11,233 bases of DNA from an uncultured Clostridia bacterium (GTDB lineage Bacteria > Bacillota > Clostridia > Lachnospirales > CAMVHY01). Position numbers and translations under genes: made by a program. Under the pieces are notes generated by a model, which was not told where the DNA came from, did no database searches, and worked only from the letters and a program-made list of their open reading frames with translations. Shown here piece by piece: positions 1,909-11,233 of this stretch. The DNA lies in assembly GCA_947167415.1 (NCBI GenBank), contig CAMVHY010000016.1:1-11233 (forward strand), read 5' to 3'. Numbering within the stretch: the first letter of the stretch is position 1; each line of letters begins with the position of its first letter.

Positions 1909-2635
1909 AACAAGTCAAAAATAAAAACAATCACGCGTGTTTCATAAATTTTAAACAGAAAGAACATCAAACAGAAGTTTGGCATTGAGAAGAAAAAACA
2001 GAAGATTTTGCTTGATACTTCGGTAATATACGCTTGTTCAGAATGGAAAACGCAGTTATCCTCGCGAAAAACTGCGTCCAAAAACCGATGCATGCTCCCA
2101 ACCTTTCAATGCTCACACAGCGCTGACAAAAATTTTTTTCATCTACCTCTATTGAAGTGATGTAATAACTTGTGTCGCAGGTTATTTTTTTCGGTGTAGA
2201 AATTGTTCTCTTGAGCGAAAAAACACCTTTCATTTCAGGCCATTTATAACGCTTTTTTTTAGCCAATCTAATCCATATTCCCCAGTTTTCTACAGTTTCT
2301 TTTCTTTATTCGAGCGTGATTTCTCTCCAAAATTGCAAAACCTTCTAGTCTTTCATTGTCAGAATAAATTTTTACATTTTCATAAAGTTCCAGCTAATCT
2401 TTTTTCAGCGCCAGGACATATGCTCCGTCTTTTCGTATTATTTCCTGGCTGATTTCACGCTGACAGTGCATTTAATGATTTTTCGTTTTATGTTTAGCAT
2501 TTCCAGCATTTTTTGGAATGTTGGGATTTCGTTTGTCTTTTCGTGTATCTTTTCTTATCCAAGTATCAAACCTGTTTCTGTCGTATACGCAGTAATTATT
2601 TGTAGTGCTGAGTGTGGCTTTCCTTCTTTGCTTCT
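1889..2635 (-). pseudogene. Decayed ISAs1-type transposase (C-terminal two-thirds, several frameshifts and stops)
   Basis: Conceptual translation on the minus strand, switching frames, recovers the landmarks of ISAs1-family (H-repeat type) DDE transposases in the right order. They are: ALQIITAYTTETGLILG then a stop (about 2610-2550); EKTNEIPTFQKMLEML (about 2540-2490); MHCQREISQEIIRK then AYVLALKKD (about 2470-2400); YKWPEMKG (about 2250-2230); TSYYITSIEVDEKNF (about 2180-2130); and MHRFLDAVFREDNC (about 2093-2050). At least three frame changes (near 2470, 2265 and 2090) and several in-frame stops rule out a working enzyme. The part before about residue 170 is absent; its place is taken by the 157-codon gene. 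The left end coincides with the terminus-like repeat at 1889-1908. Confidence 0.85.
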
Positions 2636-3069
2636 AAATTTGGTGCAAATTCGTGCTGATTATTACTTTGATTTTTATTGCTATCAAAAAAAATTATATT
2701 TTTAATTTGTTGTTCTGTAAAACCAGCGGTATTAATAATATCTTGGCATAATCCATAAAATTGTTCCGGATTCCAAGAAGCAAAAAAGTGACCTGGATTT
2801 TCTAAATTTTCTATTTGCCTTTGATATTTGCCATAATCATTTGTATTTCTTTGCTTCACAAAATACTCATTAAATTTCTTACATACTCCGAGGATATTCT
2901 CATCACTTAAAATTTTTGGATTAAAATTTTTAGTTTTTTTTAAATTCCATTTCGGAAAATTGATTGTTTTTACAGCCTTATTTCCATTTAGACTTAAAAT
3001 ATTTACCCCCAACAACACTTTCATTTCAAAAAGAACTTGATTTTTATTATCAGGAAATACTTTGTTCAT
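2596..3069 (-). CDS. Orphan protein, paralogue of the 143-codon neighbour
   Basis: I do not recognise this 157-residue protein. It is polar, rich in lysine and asparagine, with no signal peptide or membrane segment. Residues 60-150 align with residues 53-139 of the 143-codon protein next door. The alignment is ungapped at an offset of 7 over about 65 residues, with shared NE, DY.KY...I..LE, a conserved F, A..T...I, and a tail of N.NQ then PN.E. The last residues (SHTQHYK) and the stop codon lie in DNA belonging to the ISAs1-type remnant, so the original end was probably replaced. The ribosome site is weak (AAAGAG) compared with AAGGAG in the sibling cassette. The upstream palindrome at 3104-3117 suggests repressor control. 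It may also be reached by readthrough from the 143-codon gene. Confidence 0.65.
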   Translation of the reverse strand: MNKVFPDNKNQVLFEMKVLLGVNILSLNGNKAVKTINFPKWNLKKTKNFNPKILSDENILGVCKKFNEYFVKQRNTNDYGKYQRQIENLENPGHFFASWNPEQFYGLCQDIINTAGFTEQQIKNIIFFDSNKNQSNNQHEFAPNLEAKKESHTQHYK

Positions 3070-3132
3070 AATTTATTTCTCTTTAAATTTTTTTTATTTT
3101 AATTGTGTTCGAACACATTTTACATTTTAAAC
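3070..3132 (-). promoter_or_regulatory. Promoter-operator cassette, copy 1
   Basis: On the minus strand this stretch runs GTTTAAAATGTAAAATG, then the palindrome, then an A/T-rich leader to the ATG. It is nearly identical to 4011-4072 apart from a few substitutions and one base of length. TAAAAT (3117-3122 or 3124-3129 in complement) is the likely -10 box. The -35 region is weak. The cassette ends in a degraded ribosome site, AAAGAGAAATAAATT. Confidence 0.6.
3104..3117. promoter_or_regulatory. Operator palindrome TGTGTTCGAACACA, copy 1
   Basis: This is a perfect 14-bp palindrome directly downstream of the -10-like box of the 157-codon gene, at the expected transcription start. That is a classic place for a repressor site. 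The same 14 bases recur at 4044-4057. The arrangement GTTC-GAAC differs from the Gram-positive LexA box (GAAC-N4-GTTC). The regulator is unknown. Confidence 0.65.
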
Positions 3133-3173
3133 AAAGAAAACAAGCAAAGGATATAAAACTAAATTTCTACTGA

Positions 3174-3605
3174 TTATAGATTTTTATCTTCTTCTTCTGT
3201 TTCAAAATTAGGTATACGGGCTTGTTGATTTGGATTGTTATTTTTTAAACTTAATATGCTTATTGTTTCTCGTGTAATATTTGCGCTCTGAAGGACATTA
3301 TGAAGCAAATTATTCCAATTTTTCTTTTTACAAGTAACAAAATCGTAAGCTGATTTTTCTAAATCGGATATCTCTTGCTTATATTTTTCGTAATCTAATG
3401 GATTTATATGCCTTATTACGTTCTCATTAAGATTATTGAAGAGGTCAATAACTTTGCCTTCATTATCTATTAAATAACTGTTTGATTGCTCTGATAAATT
3501 TATTATTTCTTGAATAAGAGCTGTGTTTTTCAACAAAAAACTTTTATTTTTAACCGATTTTTTAGATATAGCTTTTTTAACCCACAAACGTTTCGGTTTT
3601 TCCAT
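3174..3605 (-). CDS. Orphan protein, paralogue of the 157-codon neighbour
   Basis: This 143-residue protein is not recognised. The first 30 residues are strongly basic (MEKPKRLWVKKAISKK, then more K). Residues 53-139 are mostly helical-looking and align with the 157-codon protein (NE at 60-61, DYEKY at 71-75, LE at 82-83, A..T at 108-111). The tail is acidic (ETEEED). There is no signal peptide or membrane segment. The segment YEKYKQEISDLEKSAYDFV (72-90) also resembles residues 200-218 of the large repeat protein at 8930. The ATG follows a strong AAGGAGAG site. It has its own promoter rather than the palindromic cassette of its two neighbours. Confidence 0.7.
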   Translation of the reverse strand: MEKPKRLWVKKAISKKSVKNKSFLLKNTALIQEIINLSEQSNSYLIDNEGKVIDLFNNLNENVIRHINPLDYEKYKQEISDLEKSAYDFVTCKKKNWNNLLHNVLQSANITRETISILSLKNNNPNQQARIPNFETEEEDKNL

Positions 3606-3625
3606 AATTTTTCTCTCCTTGATAT

Positions 3626-3655
3626 TTTATATTTTAAATAAAAAACTCATGTCAA
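3626..3655 (-). promoter_or_regulatory. Promoter of the 143-codon orphan gene
   Basis: On the minus strand, TTGACA (complement of 3650-3655) is followed after 18 bases by TATAAA (complement of 3626-3631). The ribosome site AAGGAGAG (complement of 3613-3620) comes soon after, implying a short leader. This is a good vegetative sigma-factor match. Confidence 0.65.
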
Positions 3656-3717
3656 AAAAATTTTCCCATAGCTATAAATAAAAATTTAATCACTACAAAA
3701 TTTTTTTTACAAAAAAG

Positions 3718-3750
3718 AAATGAGCTTCTAAATATAAAGCTCATTTTTTA
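3718..3750. terminator. Bidirectional Rho-independent terminator
   Basis: AAATGAGCTT (3718-3727) pairs with AAGCTCATTT (3737-3746) around a 9-base loop. A run of T follows on the plus strand, and TTTCTTTTTT follows on the minus strand. On the minus strand it ends the transcript of the 65-codon gene and separates it from the promoter of the 143-codon gene. Confidence 0.75.
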
Positions 3751-3798
3751 TGCTTATAAACCTTTACTATTTTTTTTATTTATAACAGAGCCTTGTTG

Positions 3799-3834
3799 AT
3801 TTTTATTAAAACTTATTTATTTTTATTAAAACTT
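3799..3834. repeat. 20-bp tandem duplication at the 3' end of the 65-codon gene
   Basis: ATTTTTATTAAAACTT occurs at 3799-3814 and again at 3819-3834, exactly 20 bases apart. The stop codon of the 65-codon gene (3813-3815) overlaps the repeat. Removing one 20-base unit would extend that reading frame by 14 codons, to a stop at 3754-3756 just before the terminator. Confidence 0.8.
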
Positions 3835-4010
3835 TTACCTGATTCTCTCTTTGGATGAATAATTTTTTTGTCTTTCACAAGCCGCGTTTTCTTTCCAAGA
3901 AAAGATTTGTCCAGATATTTTTGACTCATAGATTCTGCAGGAAAGTTGCCATACGATCCGGTTGAATTTTTTTGCCCCTCTTGATTCCATAAACTCATGA
4001 ATCCTTGCAT
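3813..4010 (-). CDS. Small basic orphan protein (65 codons), probably truncated
   Basis: This is an unrecognised small protein. The N-terminal half is polar with glycine and serine (SLWNQEGQKNSTGSYGNFP). The C-terminal half is very basic (KKTRLVKDKKIIHPKRESGK), which would suit nucleic-acid or membrane-surface binding, though that is only inference. The ATG is preceded by AAGGAGAGATAAGTT, a strong and well-spaced ribosome site. The gene has its own promoter-operator cassette and a terminator, which supports its reality despite its size. The 20-bp tandem duplication seems to have cut it short; the pre-duplication tail would read QQGSVINKKNSKGL. It lies 77 bases downstream of spmB on the same strand. 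Confidence 0.65.
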   Translation of the reverse strand: MQGFMSLWNQEGQKNSTGSYGNFPAESMSQKYLDKSFLGKKTRLVKDKKIIHPKRESGKSFNKNK

Positions 4011-4072
4011 AACTTATCTCTCCTTAAATTTTTTTATTTTAAATGTGTTCGAACACACTTTACATTTTAAAC
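4011..4072 (-). promoter_or_regulatory. Promoter-operator cassette, copy 2
   Basis: This is the near-identical partner of 3070-3132. With the adjacent TTGACA (complement of 4086-4091, overlapping the end of spmB) and TAAAAT (complement of 4064-4069), it forms a -35/-10 pair with a 16-base spacer. The palindrome follows immediately, then the leader with AAGGAGAG. The better -35 and ribosome site suggest this copy is stronger than copy 1. Confidence 0.65.
4044..4057. promoter_or_regulatory. Operator palindrome TGTGTTCGAACACA, copy 2
   Basis: This is the same perfect 14-bp palindrome as at 3104-3117, again at the predicted transcription start. It probably serves the same regulator for the 65-codon gene. 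Confidence 0.65.
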
Positions 4073-4087
4073 AAAAAAAAATCTCTG

Positions 4088-4615
4088 TCAAGCAAAAATT
4101 TTTGCTATGAACAAAGATGCAATTATTCCAATAATATTCGCGATTAACGCTCCTTTAAGTGTATATCGGATTTTTTTTATTTTTACACTCATAAAATAAA
4201 TACTTATCGTATAAAAAATTGTTTCTGTGCAATACATCATAATCGAAACAAGTTTTCCAACAAACGAATCCGGACCATATTTTTTAAAAATATCTAGCAA
4301 TAAACTTGTAGACGCCGAAGACGAAACTAATCTCATAAAAATTAATGGGACAGCTTCTTTTGGAAAACCAAAAAAATTAGCAATTGGACTTAATAATTTA
4401 CTAAAAAAATCAAGCGCACCTGACTCACGCAAAATTCCTACGGCCGTCATTAATCCAACTAACGTCGGAAAAATTTTAAAAATAACTTGTGCGCCTTCTT
4501 TTGCTCCTTCTATAAATGCTTCATAGATATCAATTTTTTTTTCATAGCCATATAAAATTATGCTTAAAAATGCTAACGGCATAATTAACTCAGAAAGAAA
4601 AATTATTAATTTCAC
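4088..4615 (-). CDS. spmB: Spore maturation protein B (membrane protein)
   Basis: In Bacillus, SpmB acts with SpmA in spore core dehydration; homologues also occur in some non-spore-formers. The family belongs to the nucleoside-recognition (Gate) type of membrane proteins. The 175 residues match SpmB length (about 178) and pattern: YEAFIEGAKEGAQVIF near 30-46, a glycine-rich membrane helix, ESGALDF near 64-70, YGPDSFVGKLVSIM near 114-127, and a final hydrophobic helix. Hydrophobic segments occur throughout. The start is GTG, which overlaps the spmA stop as GTGA, and AAGTGAT just upstream acts as the ribosome site. Coupled translation with spmA is likely. Confidence 0.93.
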   Translation of the reverse strand: MKLIIFLSELIMPLAFLSIILYGYEKKIDIYEAFIEGAKEGAQVIFKIFPTLVGLMTAVGILRESGALDFFSKLLSPIANFFGFPKEAVPLIFMRLVSSSASTSLLLDIFKKYGPDSFVGKLVSIMMYCTETIFYTISIYFMSVKIKKIRYTLKGALIANIIGIIASLFIAKIFA

Positions 4616-5205
4616 GCTTTATCACTTAACTTATTATCCCGAAATTCAAAAATTTTTGTGATTAAAATCGCACTTAAAGTCGAAATCAACGTCGCTAAAA
4701 TTCCTGGACCGATTATTTCAGATGGATTTTTAGAATTATATTGCGCACGATAAGCAATTATATTTATGCAGATTATTTGCAACGAGGACATATTTAAAAT
4801 CATAAACATACACATTTCACGGCTTGCCGTATCTTTTTTAGAATTTATTTTTTGTAACTCATCCATCGCTTTTAAACCTGCAGGAGTTGCTGCCCAACTT
4901 AATCCCAATGCGTTCGCAATTATATTTATCGAAATATATTTTAATGCCTTTGAATTTTTGTCTAGCTTGGGAAATAAAAATTTTAAAAACGGCATAATTT
5001 TTTGTGATAGATAATCCATCATGCCAGATTTTTCCGCGATTTTTATTAATCCTGTCCAAACCGATAAAACTCCAAGCATCGTAATAGAAATATTTACAGC
5101 TTCACGTGAAGAATTTATTACACCGTTTGCAACCGACATTAAATTATTATTTATAAACGCAAAAAAAATTCCGATTAGAATCATGCTTCCCCATAAATAA
5201 TTCAA
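4612..5205 (-). CDS. spmA: Spore maturation protein A (membrane protein)
   Basis: This 197-residue membrane protein has the length and pattern of SpmA (196 in B. subtilis). It starts NYLWGSMILIGIFFAFINN, followed by a segment with SREAVNISITMLGVLSVWTGLIKIAEKSG. Next is an ANALGLSWAATPAGLKAMDELQ block around 94-115, and the C-terminal motif GPGILATLISTLSAI. It works with SpmB. The start is TTG, preceded by AAAGGGG at good spacing, and the N-terminal residues line up with known SpmA starts. It is the first gene of the minus-strand unit and is divergent from the 397-codon gene. Confidence 0.93.
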   Translation of the reverse strand: MNYLWGSMILIGIFFAFINNNLMSVANGVINSSREAVNISITMLGVLSVWTGLIKIAEKSGMMDYLSQKIMPFLKFLFPKLDKNSKALKYISINIIANALGLSWAATPAGLKAMDELQKINSKKDTASREMCMFMILNMSSLQIICINIIAYRAQYNSKNPSEIIGPGILATLISTLSAILITKIFEFRDNKLSDKA

Positions 5206-6651: not shown

Positions 6652-6657
6652 CCACGT

Positions 6658-6691
6658 TGTGCTTGTCAATTTTTTTTTATGTTCAAGCGCA
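6658..6691. promoter_or_regulatory. Imperfect inverted repeat in the groES leader
   Basis: TGTGCTTG (6658-6665) and CAAGCGCA (6684-6691) form an inverted repeat with 7 of 8 pairs matching across 18 bases, right at the predicted transcription start. It occupies the place where CIRCE (TTAGCACTC-N9-GAGTGCTAA) would be expected for HrcA control, but the sequence does not match CIRCE. It may be a different heat-shock operator or a leader hairpin. Confidence 0.4.
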
Positions 6692-6716
6692 GAAAAAATT
6701 AGGAGGAATTATTTTT

Positions 6717-8868: not shown

Positions 8869-8903
8869 TTGTATTCGGATATATAAATTTTGTTCGAATA
8901 CAA
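8869..8903. promoter_or_regulatory. Inverted operator half-sites upstream of the large repeat protein
   Basis: TTGTATTCG (8869-8877) and CGAATACAA (8895-8903) form a perfect 9-bp inverted repeat separated by 17 bases. The half-site TGTATTCG differs by one base from TGTGTTCG in the palindromes at 3104-3117 and 4044-4057. A -35-like TTGTTA (8855-8860) and a TATATA-rich -10 region (about 8878-8886) place the repeat around the promoter core and start point. The right half also forms an imperfect contiguous palindrome, TTTTGTTCGAATACAAAA. Confidence 0.6.
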
Positions 8904-8929: not shown

Positions 8930-11233
8930 ATGTCACAAATTACAATAAGTTCAATGGAAGATGTACGTCAAAATCCCAAAATTTTGGCTGATAAATTGAG
9001 CAAAACATTGGACAAAGAGAACGAGGTTTTAGAAGAATACTTTTCATATTTGCAAAATAATAATGCGAGATTTGATGATTATTTGACAATGTTAGGGGAA
9101 TTTATTGTTCCACAGCTTAACGAAAAATATGAAGGAAACGAAAAAAAATATGGTTCGAAAGGTAAATGGAGTAATTATCAGAATGGGTTATTGCTTTTGT
9201 TTTTAGGTGTTGATGATTATGTTCGGGAAAATTATTTACTCGGGAGTTCAGATTTACGGAAAGAATATGCTAAATTTATGGACAAGGTTGACTCAGAAAT
9301 TAAAAATCAACTTGACAAAACGAGATTTGGTTGTGCGAAATATATGCTTAACAAATTGAATACGGAGCCGGATGGTCGTAAAGAAGTTTTAAAAGAATAC
9401 TTTTCATATTTGCAAAGTAATGGCGCGAGATTTGATGGTTATTTGACAATGTTAGGGGAATTTAGTGTTCCACAGCTTAATGAAAAATATGAAGGAAACG
9501 AAAAAAAATATGACTCAGAAGAAAAATATGAAAAGTATCAAAAAGAGCTGTTTGACGTACTTGTAGAAGTAAATGATTTTCTGTGGAAAAATTATTTGTT
9601 TTTGGATAGGGAATTGCGTTGGAAATATGCTGATGATGTAATATCGAAGATTGATGGCGATTGTTTTGAAAGATTTTTATATACAAAAAAACCAAAAAAA
9701 ACGGAGTTAGAAACTCCAGGAGATCGGGAAAAAATAAATGCATATAATAAAGTTTTGGAAAGTTTTTTTTATCGGAATATAAGAAGCCTGATTTTTTCCA
9801 AATTATTGTGCAAAAATTTACGTGAAGCTATTTTAAATGCAGATGATTCAGTCCCCGATGATATTGGTCCGTATTTAAATACGGAATATAACCAGACTTT
9901 TTATTTTAATGAAGCGCCTGTCACTCAAGAAAATATATTCAAATTAAATAATAAGCTTGACTCATTTAAATGGAAAGAAAAGTTAGACAAAGACAATAAA
10001 ATGGCAAGAGAATGCCTTGCTGATATTAAAAAAATTAAAAAAAATAAATGCGAACAGATAAATTTATTTGATGTTTATATTAGTTTTCTTGAAACAGCTG
10101 TTATCCCACAAGTGAATGAATCTGAATATGAAAAAAAATATACTCCGAAAGGATGGCCACTATATAATAGGTTATCTGACAAGAAACAAGCAGAGTTTGA
10201 CGAATTACGAAAAAAAATATATGATAAACATCAAAATCAATTGTTAGATATTCTTGTTGAAACAAATGATTTGATTTGGCAAATACTTGAATCAAATTCA
10301 TTATCAGAATATGAAAAAAATCAATTGTTAGCATGTTATTATAATCTTATTGAAAAAATTGAACCCCGTGCTTGGGAGAGAATTAGTAATTTATTATATA
10401 AAAGAGAAGAAAAAGCTCTTAAATCAAAGAATAAAAAGAAAGTTGCTGAGTATAACCGAATCGTAGAAAATCTTATTTATCGGAATCTGGAGAATGAGAC
10501 TATTTCAGCATCTAATCTCCATTGGATTGGCGTTCCTAATCTCATAAACGAAAAAACTTTTGAAGAATATGCTGACGATTCTATGATTAAAAAATTGCTT
10601 GCTTACGCGGCTATAAAAAAATCAAATGTTGCGAATCTAGGCACTATTAAAATTCGAAAACCCGGTGAGAATCAAAAGATTTGCTTTGAATCAATGTGCG
10701 GTAATTTTACGAGCAATACGCATTGTTCGGCAGCTGATGATATTGCAAGTTTGATTAGAAATAACTCAAACGATATGGATTTCACTTTTAGTACTGTTAA
10801 TAAAGACACGTTAAACTCCAATGATAATCTTAAAAACTTTTTTTCTGAGTTTAGTTCGATTGGTCGTGATTTGGCAAAAAATAATTTTAACGTTGTTCCT
10901 AGTATTCTTAAATTGAAACTCCATAATGGATCAGAACACACAGAATATATATCACACGAAAAAGTTTTTTTCTGTTTGGGGAGTTGGATAATTCCGTTGC
11001 TAGATGAAAAAACAGATTTTAATACGGTGTATAAAATATTCAGTAAAAGGTTGGATCATTTATGCAATTTTTCAGGAATTTCAATAAGTCGTAGAGACAA
11101 AGATAAGTTAATAATTCAGACGCTTGTTTATGCGACAGGTAGTTTGTCATTAGCAGATTATAATGAAAAGTCAGTTTATAGAACTCTTATGATGATTACT
11201 GGAGAGGAAAAATTTGTTGAAGGTCATAAATTT
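8930..11233 (+). CDS. Large repeat-containing orphan protein (768 codons, runs past the window end)
   Basis: The frame is open without a stop from the ATG to the end of the window. TGGAGGAG gives a strong ribosome site about 9 bases upstream. I do not recognise the product. It is charged, lysine/glutamate/asparagine-rich and looks mostly helical, with no signal peptide or membrane segments. Three related units are visible at about 32-128, 152-250 and 376-488. Each has an F/Y-rich start, then VPQLNE or IPQVNE, EKKY, and a helix like LVEVNDFLW / LVETNDLIW. Units 2 and 3 are each followed by a second shared segment (AYNKVLESFFYRNI at 271-284; EYNRIVENLIYRNL at 507-520). Residues after about 530 are unique, with several cysteines. 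The half-sites before it link it to the orphan genes on the other strand. Confidence 0.8.
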   Translation, partial: MSQITISSMEDVRQNPKILADKLSKTLDKENEVLEEYFSYLQNNNARFDDYLTMLGEFIVPQLNEKYEGNEKKYGSKGKWSNYQNGLLLLFLGVDDYVRENYLLGSSDLRKEYAKFMDKVDSEIKNQLDKTRFGCAKYMLNKLNTEPDGRKEVLKEYFSYLQSNGARFDGYLTMLGEFSVPQLNEKYEGNEKKYDSEEKYEKYQKELFDVLVEVNDFLWKNYLFLDRELRWKYADDVISKIDGDCFERFLYTKKPKKTELETPGDREKINAYNKVLESFFYRNIRSLIFSKLLCKNLREAILNADDSVPDDIGPYLNTEYNQTFYFNEAPVTQENIFKLNNKLDSFKWKEKLDKDNKMARECLADIKKIKKNKCEQINLFDVYISFLETAVIPQVNESEYEKKYTPKGWPLYNRLSDKKQAEFDELRKKIYDKHQNQLLDILVETNDLIWQILESNSLSEYEKNQLLACYYNLIEKIEPRAWERISNLLYKREEKALKSKNKKKVAEYNRIVENLIYRNLENETISASNLHWIGVPNLINEKTFEEYADDSMIKKLLAYAAIKKSNVANLGTIKIRKPGENQKICFESMCGNFTSNTHCSAADDIASLIRNNSNDMDFTFSTVNKDTLNSNDNLKNFFSEFSSIGRDLAKNNFNVVPSILKLKLHNGSEHTEYISHEKVFFCLGSWIIPLLDEKTDFNTVYKIFSKRLDHLCNFSGISISRRDKDKLIIQTLVYATGSLSLADYNEKSVYRTLMMITGEEKFVEGHKF
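9023..9512 (+). repeat. 360-bp-period internal repeat, near-identical over about 130 bp
   Basis: 9023-9152 and 9383-9512 match at all but about 9 of 130 positions and are exactly 360 bases (120 codons) apart within one reading frame. Similarity drops sharply right after the matched block, although the encoded units remain distantly related. This pattern suggests recent gene conversion or a local duplication inside older repeats. Confidence 0.85.

Follow-up and report, generated by a model that had tools for sequence, protein, structure and literature searches.

A near-identical leader with a perfect 14-bp palindrome precedes two unrelated small genes in a clostridial genome

Stem-loops that stabilize mRNA at its 5' terminus were reportedly described by Emory, Bouvet and Belasco in 1992, and putative mobile promoters, or promoter propagation, are said to be the subject of Matus-Garcia, Nijveen and van Passel (2012, Nucleic Acids Res 40:10032). 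A dyad of the form TG..CG..CA is the layout of LacI/CcpA-type operators. The stabilization of mRNA by 5' stem-loops is well documented according to PMC7509114, which cites the 1992 study, and short repeats acting as promoters are treated as mobile promoters in an excerpt of PMC8049555. The consensus of the Gram-positive LexA box is given as CGAACRnRYGTTYC in PMC2248561, where a LexA motif predicted for Actinobacteria contains the 10-mer TGTTCGAACA. Since stem-loops and mobile promoters are already known, the case described here belongs to known kinds.

The window analysed is an entire contig of 11,233 nt and belongs to a 1.367-Mb assembly (220 contigs) that is 77% complete, with about a quarter of the genome absent. 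The four best GroEL relatives among the 80 loci kept show 73-77% identity and come from metagenome assemblies (Lachnospiraceae, Clostridia, Turicibacter). The nearest of the 80, L056, has 77% identity and is probably one and the same record as G001, the one same-family genome. Several further GroEL matches carry isolate names that we take to denote termite-gut assemblies. Genomes of 1.0-1.3 Mb are reported for endosymbiotic Clostridia of termite-gut protists in the consulted part of PMC10579323.

Two genes with a Pfam Gate domain (4612-5205 and 4088-4615, minus strand), presumably spmA and spmB, are followed in the order of minus-strand transcription by three orphan genes of 65 (3813-4010), 143 (3174-3605) and 157 codons (2596-3069). 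The initial annotation had described the 65- and 157-codon genes as a pair, which stands; however, the 143-codon gene lies between them, and its protein is paralogous to the 157-codon product (BLASTP E 1e-9, 26%). A terminator-like hairpin on the minus strand was predicted at 3718-3746, between the 65- and 143-codon genes. No Pfam family was found over the cut-off for any of the three proteins, and none below E 0.09 in PHROG and NCBIfam. The statement that the coding sequences differ greatly was borne out, the 65- and 157-codon products showing no relationship (E 1.3). Among 55 relatives, the best match of the 157-codon protein had an E of 0.018, which is not convincing, and no relative of it appeared in a contig scan whose reach was limited to close relatives. 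The 143-codon protein was predicted to be all-helical (pLDDT 62), with a top PDB match of E 0.76. A phage or plasmid origin was rejected for the 157- and 143-codon proteins, the two searched, which had no match in phages or plasmids; a viral origin was likewise rejected, as all three proteins were without a match in viral contigs and the core of the leader block described below was absent from them.

A pattern search located the perfect palindrome TGTGTTCGAACACA at 3104-3117, upstream of the 157-codon gene, and at 4044-4057, upstream of the 65-codon gene. Each copy lies within a minus-strand leader block, at 3067-3140 (from 11 nt upstream of the -10 through the ATG) and at 4008-4080 (ATG included). 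The blocks align over 74 columns with six substitutions and one 1-nt gap (about 91% identity), as the initial annotation had observed for these near-identical upstream stretches, and the likeness stops at the start codon. The copies are 940 bp apart. Of 442 sampled upstream regions compared with the leader of the 157-codon gene, that of the 65-codon gene scored 111 and none of the other 441 exceeded 44; the remaining DNA matches to the block in the assembly did not exceed 37 bits. We take the 65- and 157-codon leaders to share one origin.

The palindrome follows a TAAAAT by 6 nt in both copies, in agreement with its described position just after a -10-like hexamer (4064-4069, predicted as the -10 of the 65-codon gene; 3124-3129, from the sequence, before the 157-codon gene; both minus strand). 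The 65-codon gene has a predicted promoter, TTGACA-16-TAAAAT, with 11 of 12 consensus positions, the -35 of which (4086-4091, minus strand) overlaps the stop codon of the gene upstream. The block begins downstream of this -35 and upstream of the -10, so that the -35 is not in the shared part. Thus, what had been called a duplicated promoter cassette is shared as far as the -10 and leader are concerned, but not as a whole promoter. Of the two genes, the 65-codon one alone appears in the promoter listing, and the Shine-Dalgarno of the 157-codon gene is poorer (AAAGAG vs AAGGAG). The proposed common control of the two genes is weakened by the missing -35 and the poorer Shine-Dalgarno in the 157-codon copy. 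The 143-codon leader has no palindrome; it has a TTGACA of its own, seen by eye and absent from the promoter listing. With the 157-codon leader set aside, the 143- and 65-codon leaders are mutual best matches among the sampled regions, with a score of 44 vs 41; since this margin is narrow, the comparison no more than hints that the three leaders descend from one.

Conservation of the cassette had also been read as a sign of selection. The 74 columns hold seven changes, none of which falls in the 14-nt palindrome, an outcome with a chance probability of about 0.23; therefore, compared with the block, the palindrome shows no measurable excess of conservation. Local duplication is enough to explain the two copies. 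The block may be a recent local copy with a functionless palindrome, its likeness reflecting age instead of selection. This explanation, which we regard as unlikely, agrees with the lack of excess conservation, with the absence of a -35 and the poorer Shine-Dalgarno before the 157-codon gene, and with the 143-codon paralogue, which manages without the palindrome between the two copies. It also agrees with the presence of three collinear, decayed pieces of an ISAs1 transposase on the minus strand (about 2123-2551), close downstream of the 157-codon gene. A further ISAs1-like piece, recognized by eye, overlaps the last codons of that gene in another frame; it gave no match.

In both leaders, 6 nt separate the -10 from the palindrome, and the transcript should therefore begin with it. 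The reading that we favour, tentatively and at somewhat less than an even chance, is that a core promoter and leader were copied together and that the palindrome forms a hairpin at the 5' end of the mRNA. The copied segment of some 74 nt would comprise the -10, the expected start, the palindrome at +1, the Shine-Dalgarno region and the ATG, and its two copies give two unrelated small genes nearly the same leader. Judging from the 6-nt distance, the mRNA would start with the palindrome, which may fold into a short 5'-terminal stem-loop and slow mRNA decay that depends on the 5' end. The 157-codon gene would probably be the more weakly expressed, because its leader copy lacks a -35. As in the described stabilizing stem-loops, an inverted repeat lies at the expected (predicted) mRNA 5' end, before the Shine-Dalgarno; here, however, the stem has 5 bp, extended in one copy to 8 bp if a G-U pair is included, and the start is a predicted one.

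The 8-bp stem belongs to the 65-codon leader and amounts to -5.6 kcal/mol over 20 nt, whereas the core hairpin alone is weak (5 bp, -2.7 kcal/mol). Leader stretches of 56 and 59 nt gave fold z-scores of -0.68 and -1.09. The palindrome core is invariant between the copies, and the only pair that varies within the 20 nt is a G-U in one copy but reads A-A in the other; there is thus no covariation between them, two copies being a weak test. The position, the other repeats at +1 described next and the longer stem of the 65-codon leader speak for a hairpin. Against it are the weak core, the lack of covariation, the count in contigs kept apart (0/17, below) and the continuation of the palindrome through the loop, which an operator needs and a hairpin does not.

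Inverted repeats at predicted transcript starts were counted in leaders of ORFs with a Shine-Dalgarno and a promoter-like hexamer pair upstream, a +1 repeat being defined as an inverted repeat of at least 6 bp (one G-U allowed) that starts 3-8 nt after the -10, with dinucleotide shuffles as control. The first 62 contigs, among them the window, yielded 100 leaders, 12 of which had a +1 repeat, compared with 1.6 in shuffles, and none of 200 shuffles reached this number; without the three leaders of the window, the count was 9/97. The 12 include the 65-codon leader; the 157-codon leader is not in the 100 because it lacks such a promoter. Since the idea of the +1 repeat arose on part of this first set, 20 further contigs were kept apart, and these gave 0/17 (0.44 in shuffles); the idea gains no support from this result, which comes from too small a number of leaders to exclude a rate of 12%. 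All leaders together gave 12/117, with about 2 in shuffles. In G001, of the same family, 2/57 leaders had a +1 repeat (0.95 in shuffles), and in a genome of the same order 3/39 (1.9 in shuffles); the difference between the source genome and these two relatives (12/117 vs 5/96) was not significant (Fisher P 0.21). Promoter-like matches within genes gave 12/225 (8.2 in shuffles), and no clear peak was seen when repeats were scanned against the -10 alone.

Allowing one G-U pair raised the number of strict repeats from 6 to 12, and allowing one A-C mismatch from 6 to 7. This leans towards RNA, although the shuffles likewise gained more from G-U (0.57 to 1.61, vs 0.93 with A-C). The +1 repeats were also considered as a mark of orphan genes, which was not supported: with a repeat offset of 0-10, 3 of 13 repeat genes were recognized (2 of 10 by Pfam, and groES by eye; the other two had no Pfam family over the cut-off), compared with 8 of 20 random others taken from 104. 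As for a palindrome without function, two observations stand against it. The 784 kb searched contain 41 perfect 14-bp palindromes with at least four G+C, and TGTGTTCGAACACA, one of these, is located at one of the 117 predicted transcript starts; in addition, +1 repeats are over-represented in the first contig set.

As another explanation, the palindrome may be an operator placed over the transcript start and bound by a dimeric repressor at these two genes only; we consider this possible, although doubtful. A perfect 14-bp dyad TG..CG..CA lies directly after the -10, its loop is palindromic as well, and both exact sites in the assembly are at promoters. The even symmetry, the central CG and the TG..CA ends resemble LacI/CcpA-type operators, but the inner bases are unlike those of cre, no LacI-type protein was found and there is no regulon. 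A LacI-type regulator was rejected as a candidate since its DNA-binding domain, PF00356, was not found in the 77%-complete assembly, and no regulator was present among those ORFs of the contig that were scanned. Since the assembly misses about a quarter of the genome, an absent regulator may still exist.

Two overlapping CGAAC halves within the palindrome resemble the halves of the LexA box, and TGTTCGAACA occurs in the predicted Actinobacterial motif of PMC2248561. Compared with the Gram-positive box given there, the halves of the palindrome face outward, overlap and lack the N4 spacer, and the initial annotation was therefore right that the half-site order differs. Neither a CGAAC-N4-GTTCG box nor an ORF carrying a LexA cleavage motif was found in 784 kb of 1,367 kb, which speaks against LexA.

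A search of the whole assembly with up to two mismatches, as proposed for the site of a shared regulator, gave five sites for TGTGTTCGAACACA and six for the reversed control. Exact TGTGTTCGAACACA occurs twice in the assembly, and of 56 genomes searched the source genome alone was positive, the 55 relatives having none. The 8-mer GTTCGAAC was found in 784 kb at the two block sites alone, while the reversed 8-mer occurred eight times. The palindrome is therefore not the site of a genome-wide regulator, and a regulon was rejected; the counts and the 55 relatives also speak against an operator confined to the two genes. Random scattering of the palindrome, named beforehand as the outcome that would count against shared regulation, was not observed either, both exact sites lying at promoters. 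Being neither scattered nor reused, the palindrome agrees with neither a regulon nor that refutation. No match at the Rfam gathering score was obtained in the window, and the 14-mer TGTGTTCGAACACA was not mentioned in the literature text searched.

Within the window, three sites with up to three mismatches to TGTGTTCGAACACA were found (0.54 expected in shuffles), the third being 8889-8902 with two mismatches. It falls in an inverted repeat, TTGTATTCG..CGAATACAA (8869-8903, plus strand), at the expected transcript start of an orphan ORF at 8930. This repeat has 9 bp and a 17-nt loop, and the leader folds with -15.4 kcal/mol (z -3.2). Its identification as the same site as TGTGTTCGAACACA was rejected, the likeness being a resemblance only, and TGTRTTCG-N0-20-CGAAYACA occurs once in the assembly. 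The ORF itself (8930-11233) has at least 768 codons, is cut by the contig end and contains an internal 218-nt repeat at 9020 and 9380, the two copies being 80% alike.

At the expected transcript start of groES, an inverted repeat TGTGCTTG-N18-CAAGCGCA was found (6658-6691, plus strand). CIRCE was present at 17 or 18 of 18 positions in all 15 groE leaders checked (of 80 loci); these include L056, probably the same as G001, and G001 alone gives 17/18. The groES leader of the window (6652-6716) has no CIRCE (best 9/18), nor has the grpE locus, where the best match (12/18) lies inside the gene. HrcA, which is present in G001, was not detected in this assembly (77% complete).

A further kind of leader was found nine times in 784 kb; in it, an A+T-rich unit of 15-16 nt ending in GRCGTC is repeated head to tail, with two to four units per array, and the array ends in a terminator-like T run (ATTTTTT). 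The contig positions and strands are L134 15342-, L137 1539-, L138 11626-, L143 604+, L145 920-, L146 2587-, L148 11414+, L233 7249- and L247 3755+. Eight of the nine precede ORFs of 70-949 codons, and the ninth is at a contig end. The word of the unit is much alike inside one leader and varies from leader to leader. No such arrays were found in 400 kb of G001 or in 311 kb of G005, the reversed pattern gave none, and Rfam gave no match in the five loci searched. Single-unit versions were seen at L241 5192 and L151 1414. By eye, the N-terminus of some of the proteins behind these leaders is ubiquitin-like.

Copied leaders were sought by comparing all pairs of 443 upstream regions from 82 of the 220 contigs (784 kb), and 23 pairs reached the threshold score of 64. 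One of these represents overlapping ORFs at one place (L227), and ten come from five copies of an IS transposase gene matched with one another, including the one at 29-259 of the window. The latter is a piece of an IS4/5-type transposase with more copies elsewhere in the genome. Seven are paralogue pairs, of which one is weak (E 3.5e-4); in some of them the leaders resemble each other far more than the proteins do, as in L247/L143, with 97-100% for the leaders and 30% for the proteins. Two involve a doubtful 75-codon ORF, L241 5192, itself without similarity; it is probably a broken paralogue, since a relative of the partner protein is encoded farther downstream.

The remaining three pairs have no detectable protein similarity and comprise the 65-/157-codon pair, L241 872/1653 and L254 3742/L153 5970. 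The genes at L241 872+ and 1653+ are neighbours, with leaders about 94% identical over about 65 nt and proteins at E 0.70; one of them is a YchF-like GTPase by eye. The proteins of L254 3742+ and L153 5970- gave E 0.25, and each leader copy, taken alone, folds to the same hairpin at the expected start. In the ungapped comparison, seven substitutions in 30 nt include two pairs changed on both sides, and 11 of 11 pairs are kept. All seven changes are transitions, and 11% of random sets of seven transitions keep all pairs, compared with 0.4% when random substitutions are used instead. RNAalifold did not return that hairpin from the gapped alignment. The same comparison gave one pair, of paralogues, among 252 regions of G001, and 20 pairs among 417 regions of G005, including several overlapping starts and several repeats that precede unrelated proteins. 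The source genome is thus not alone in having copied upstream segments.

Like the putative mobile promoters, the locus has near-identical upstream segments before non-homologous genes in one genome. Unlike them, it does not carry a complete promoter in each copy, the copied part being without the -35, and the copies are not dispersed but are two neighbours on one strand. The suggestion of a mobile regulatory module thus gains some support from the block and the two further leader pairs, as far as local copying goes.

Taken alone, the locus is a small instance of leader copying. In a wider view, which we put forward as a speculation with little chance of being correct, a genome in which classical regulation has been lost in places would instead spread structured 5' leaders (a hairpin at +1 or GRCGTC repeat terminators) before fast-diverging orphan, perhaps effector, genes, and groESL too would have exchanged CIRCE for such a leader. 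If this were true, leaders would stay alike while the coding sequences diverge or are unrelated. The locus is a pointer to leaders in this genome that are common to unrelated or fast-diverging genes, and such leader families would be a handle on co-expressed, otherwise unrecognizable genes of a little-known clostridial lineage.
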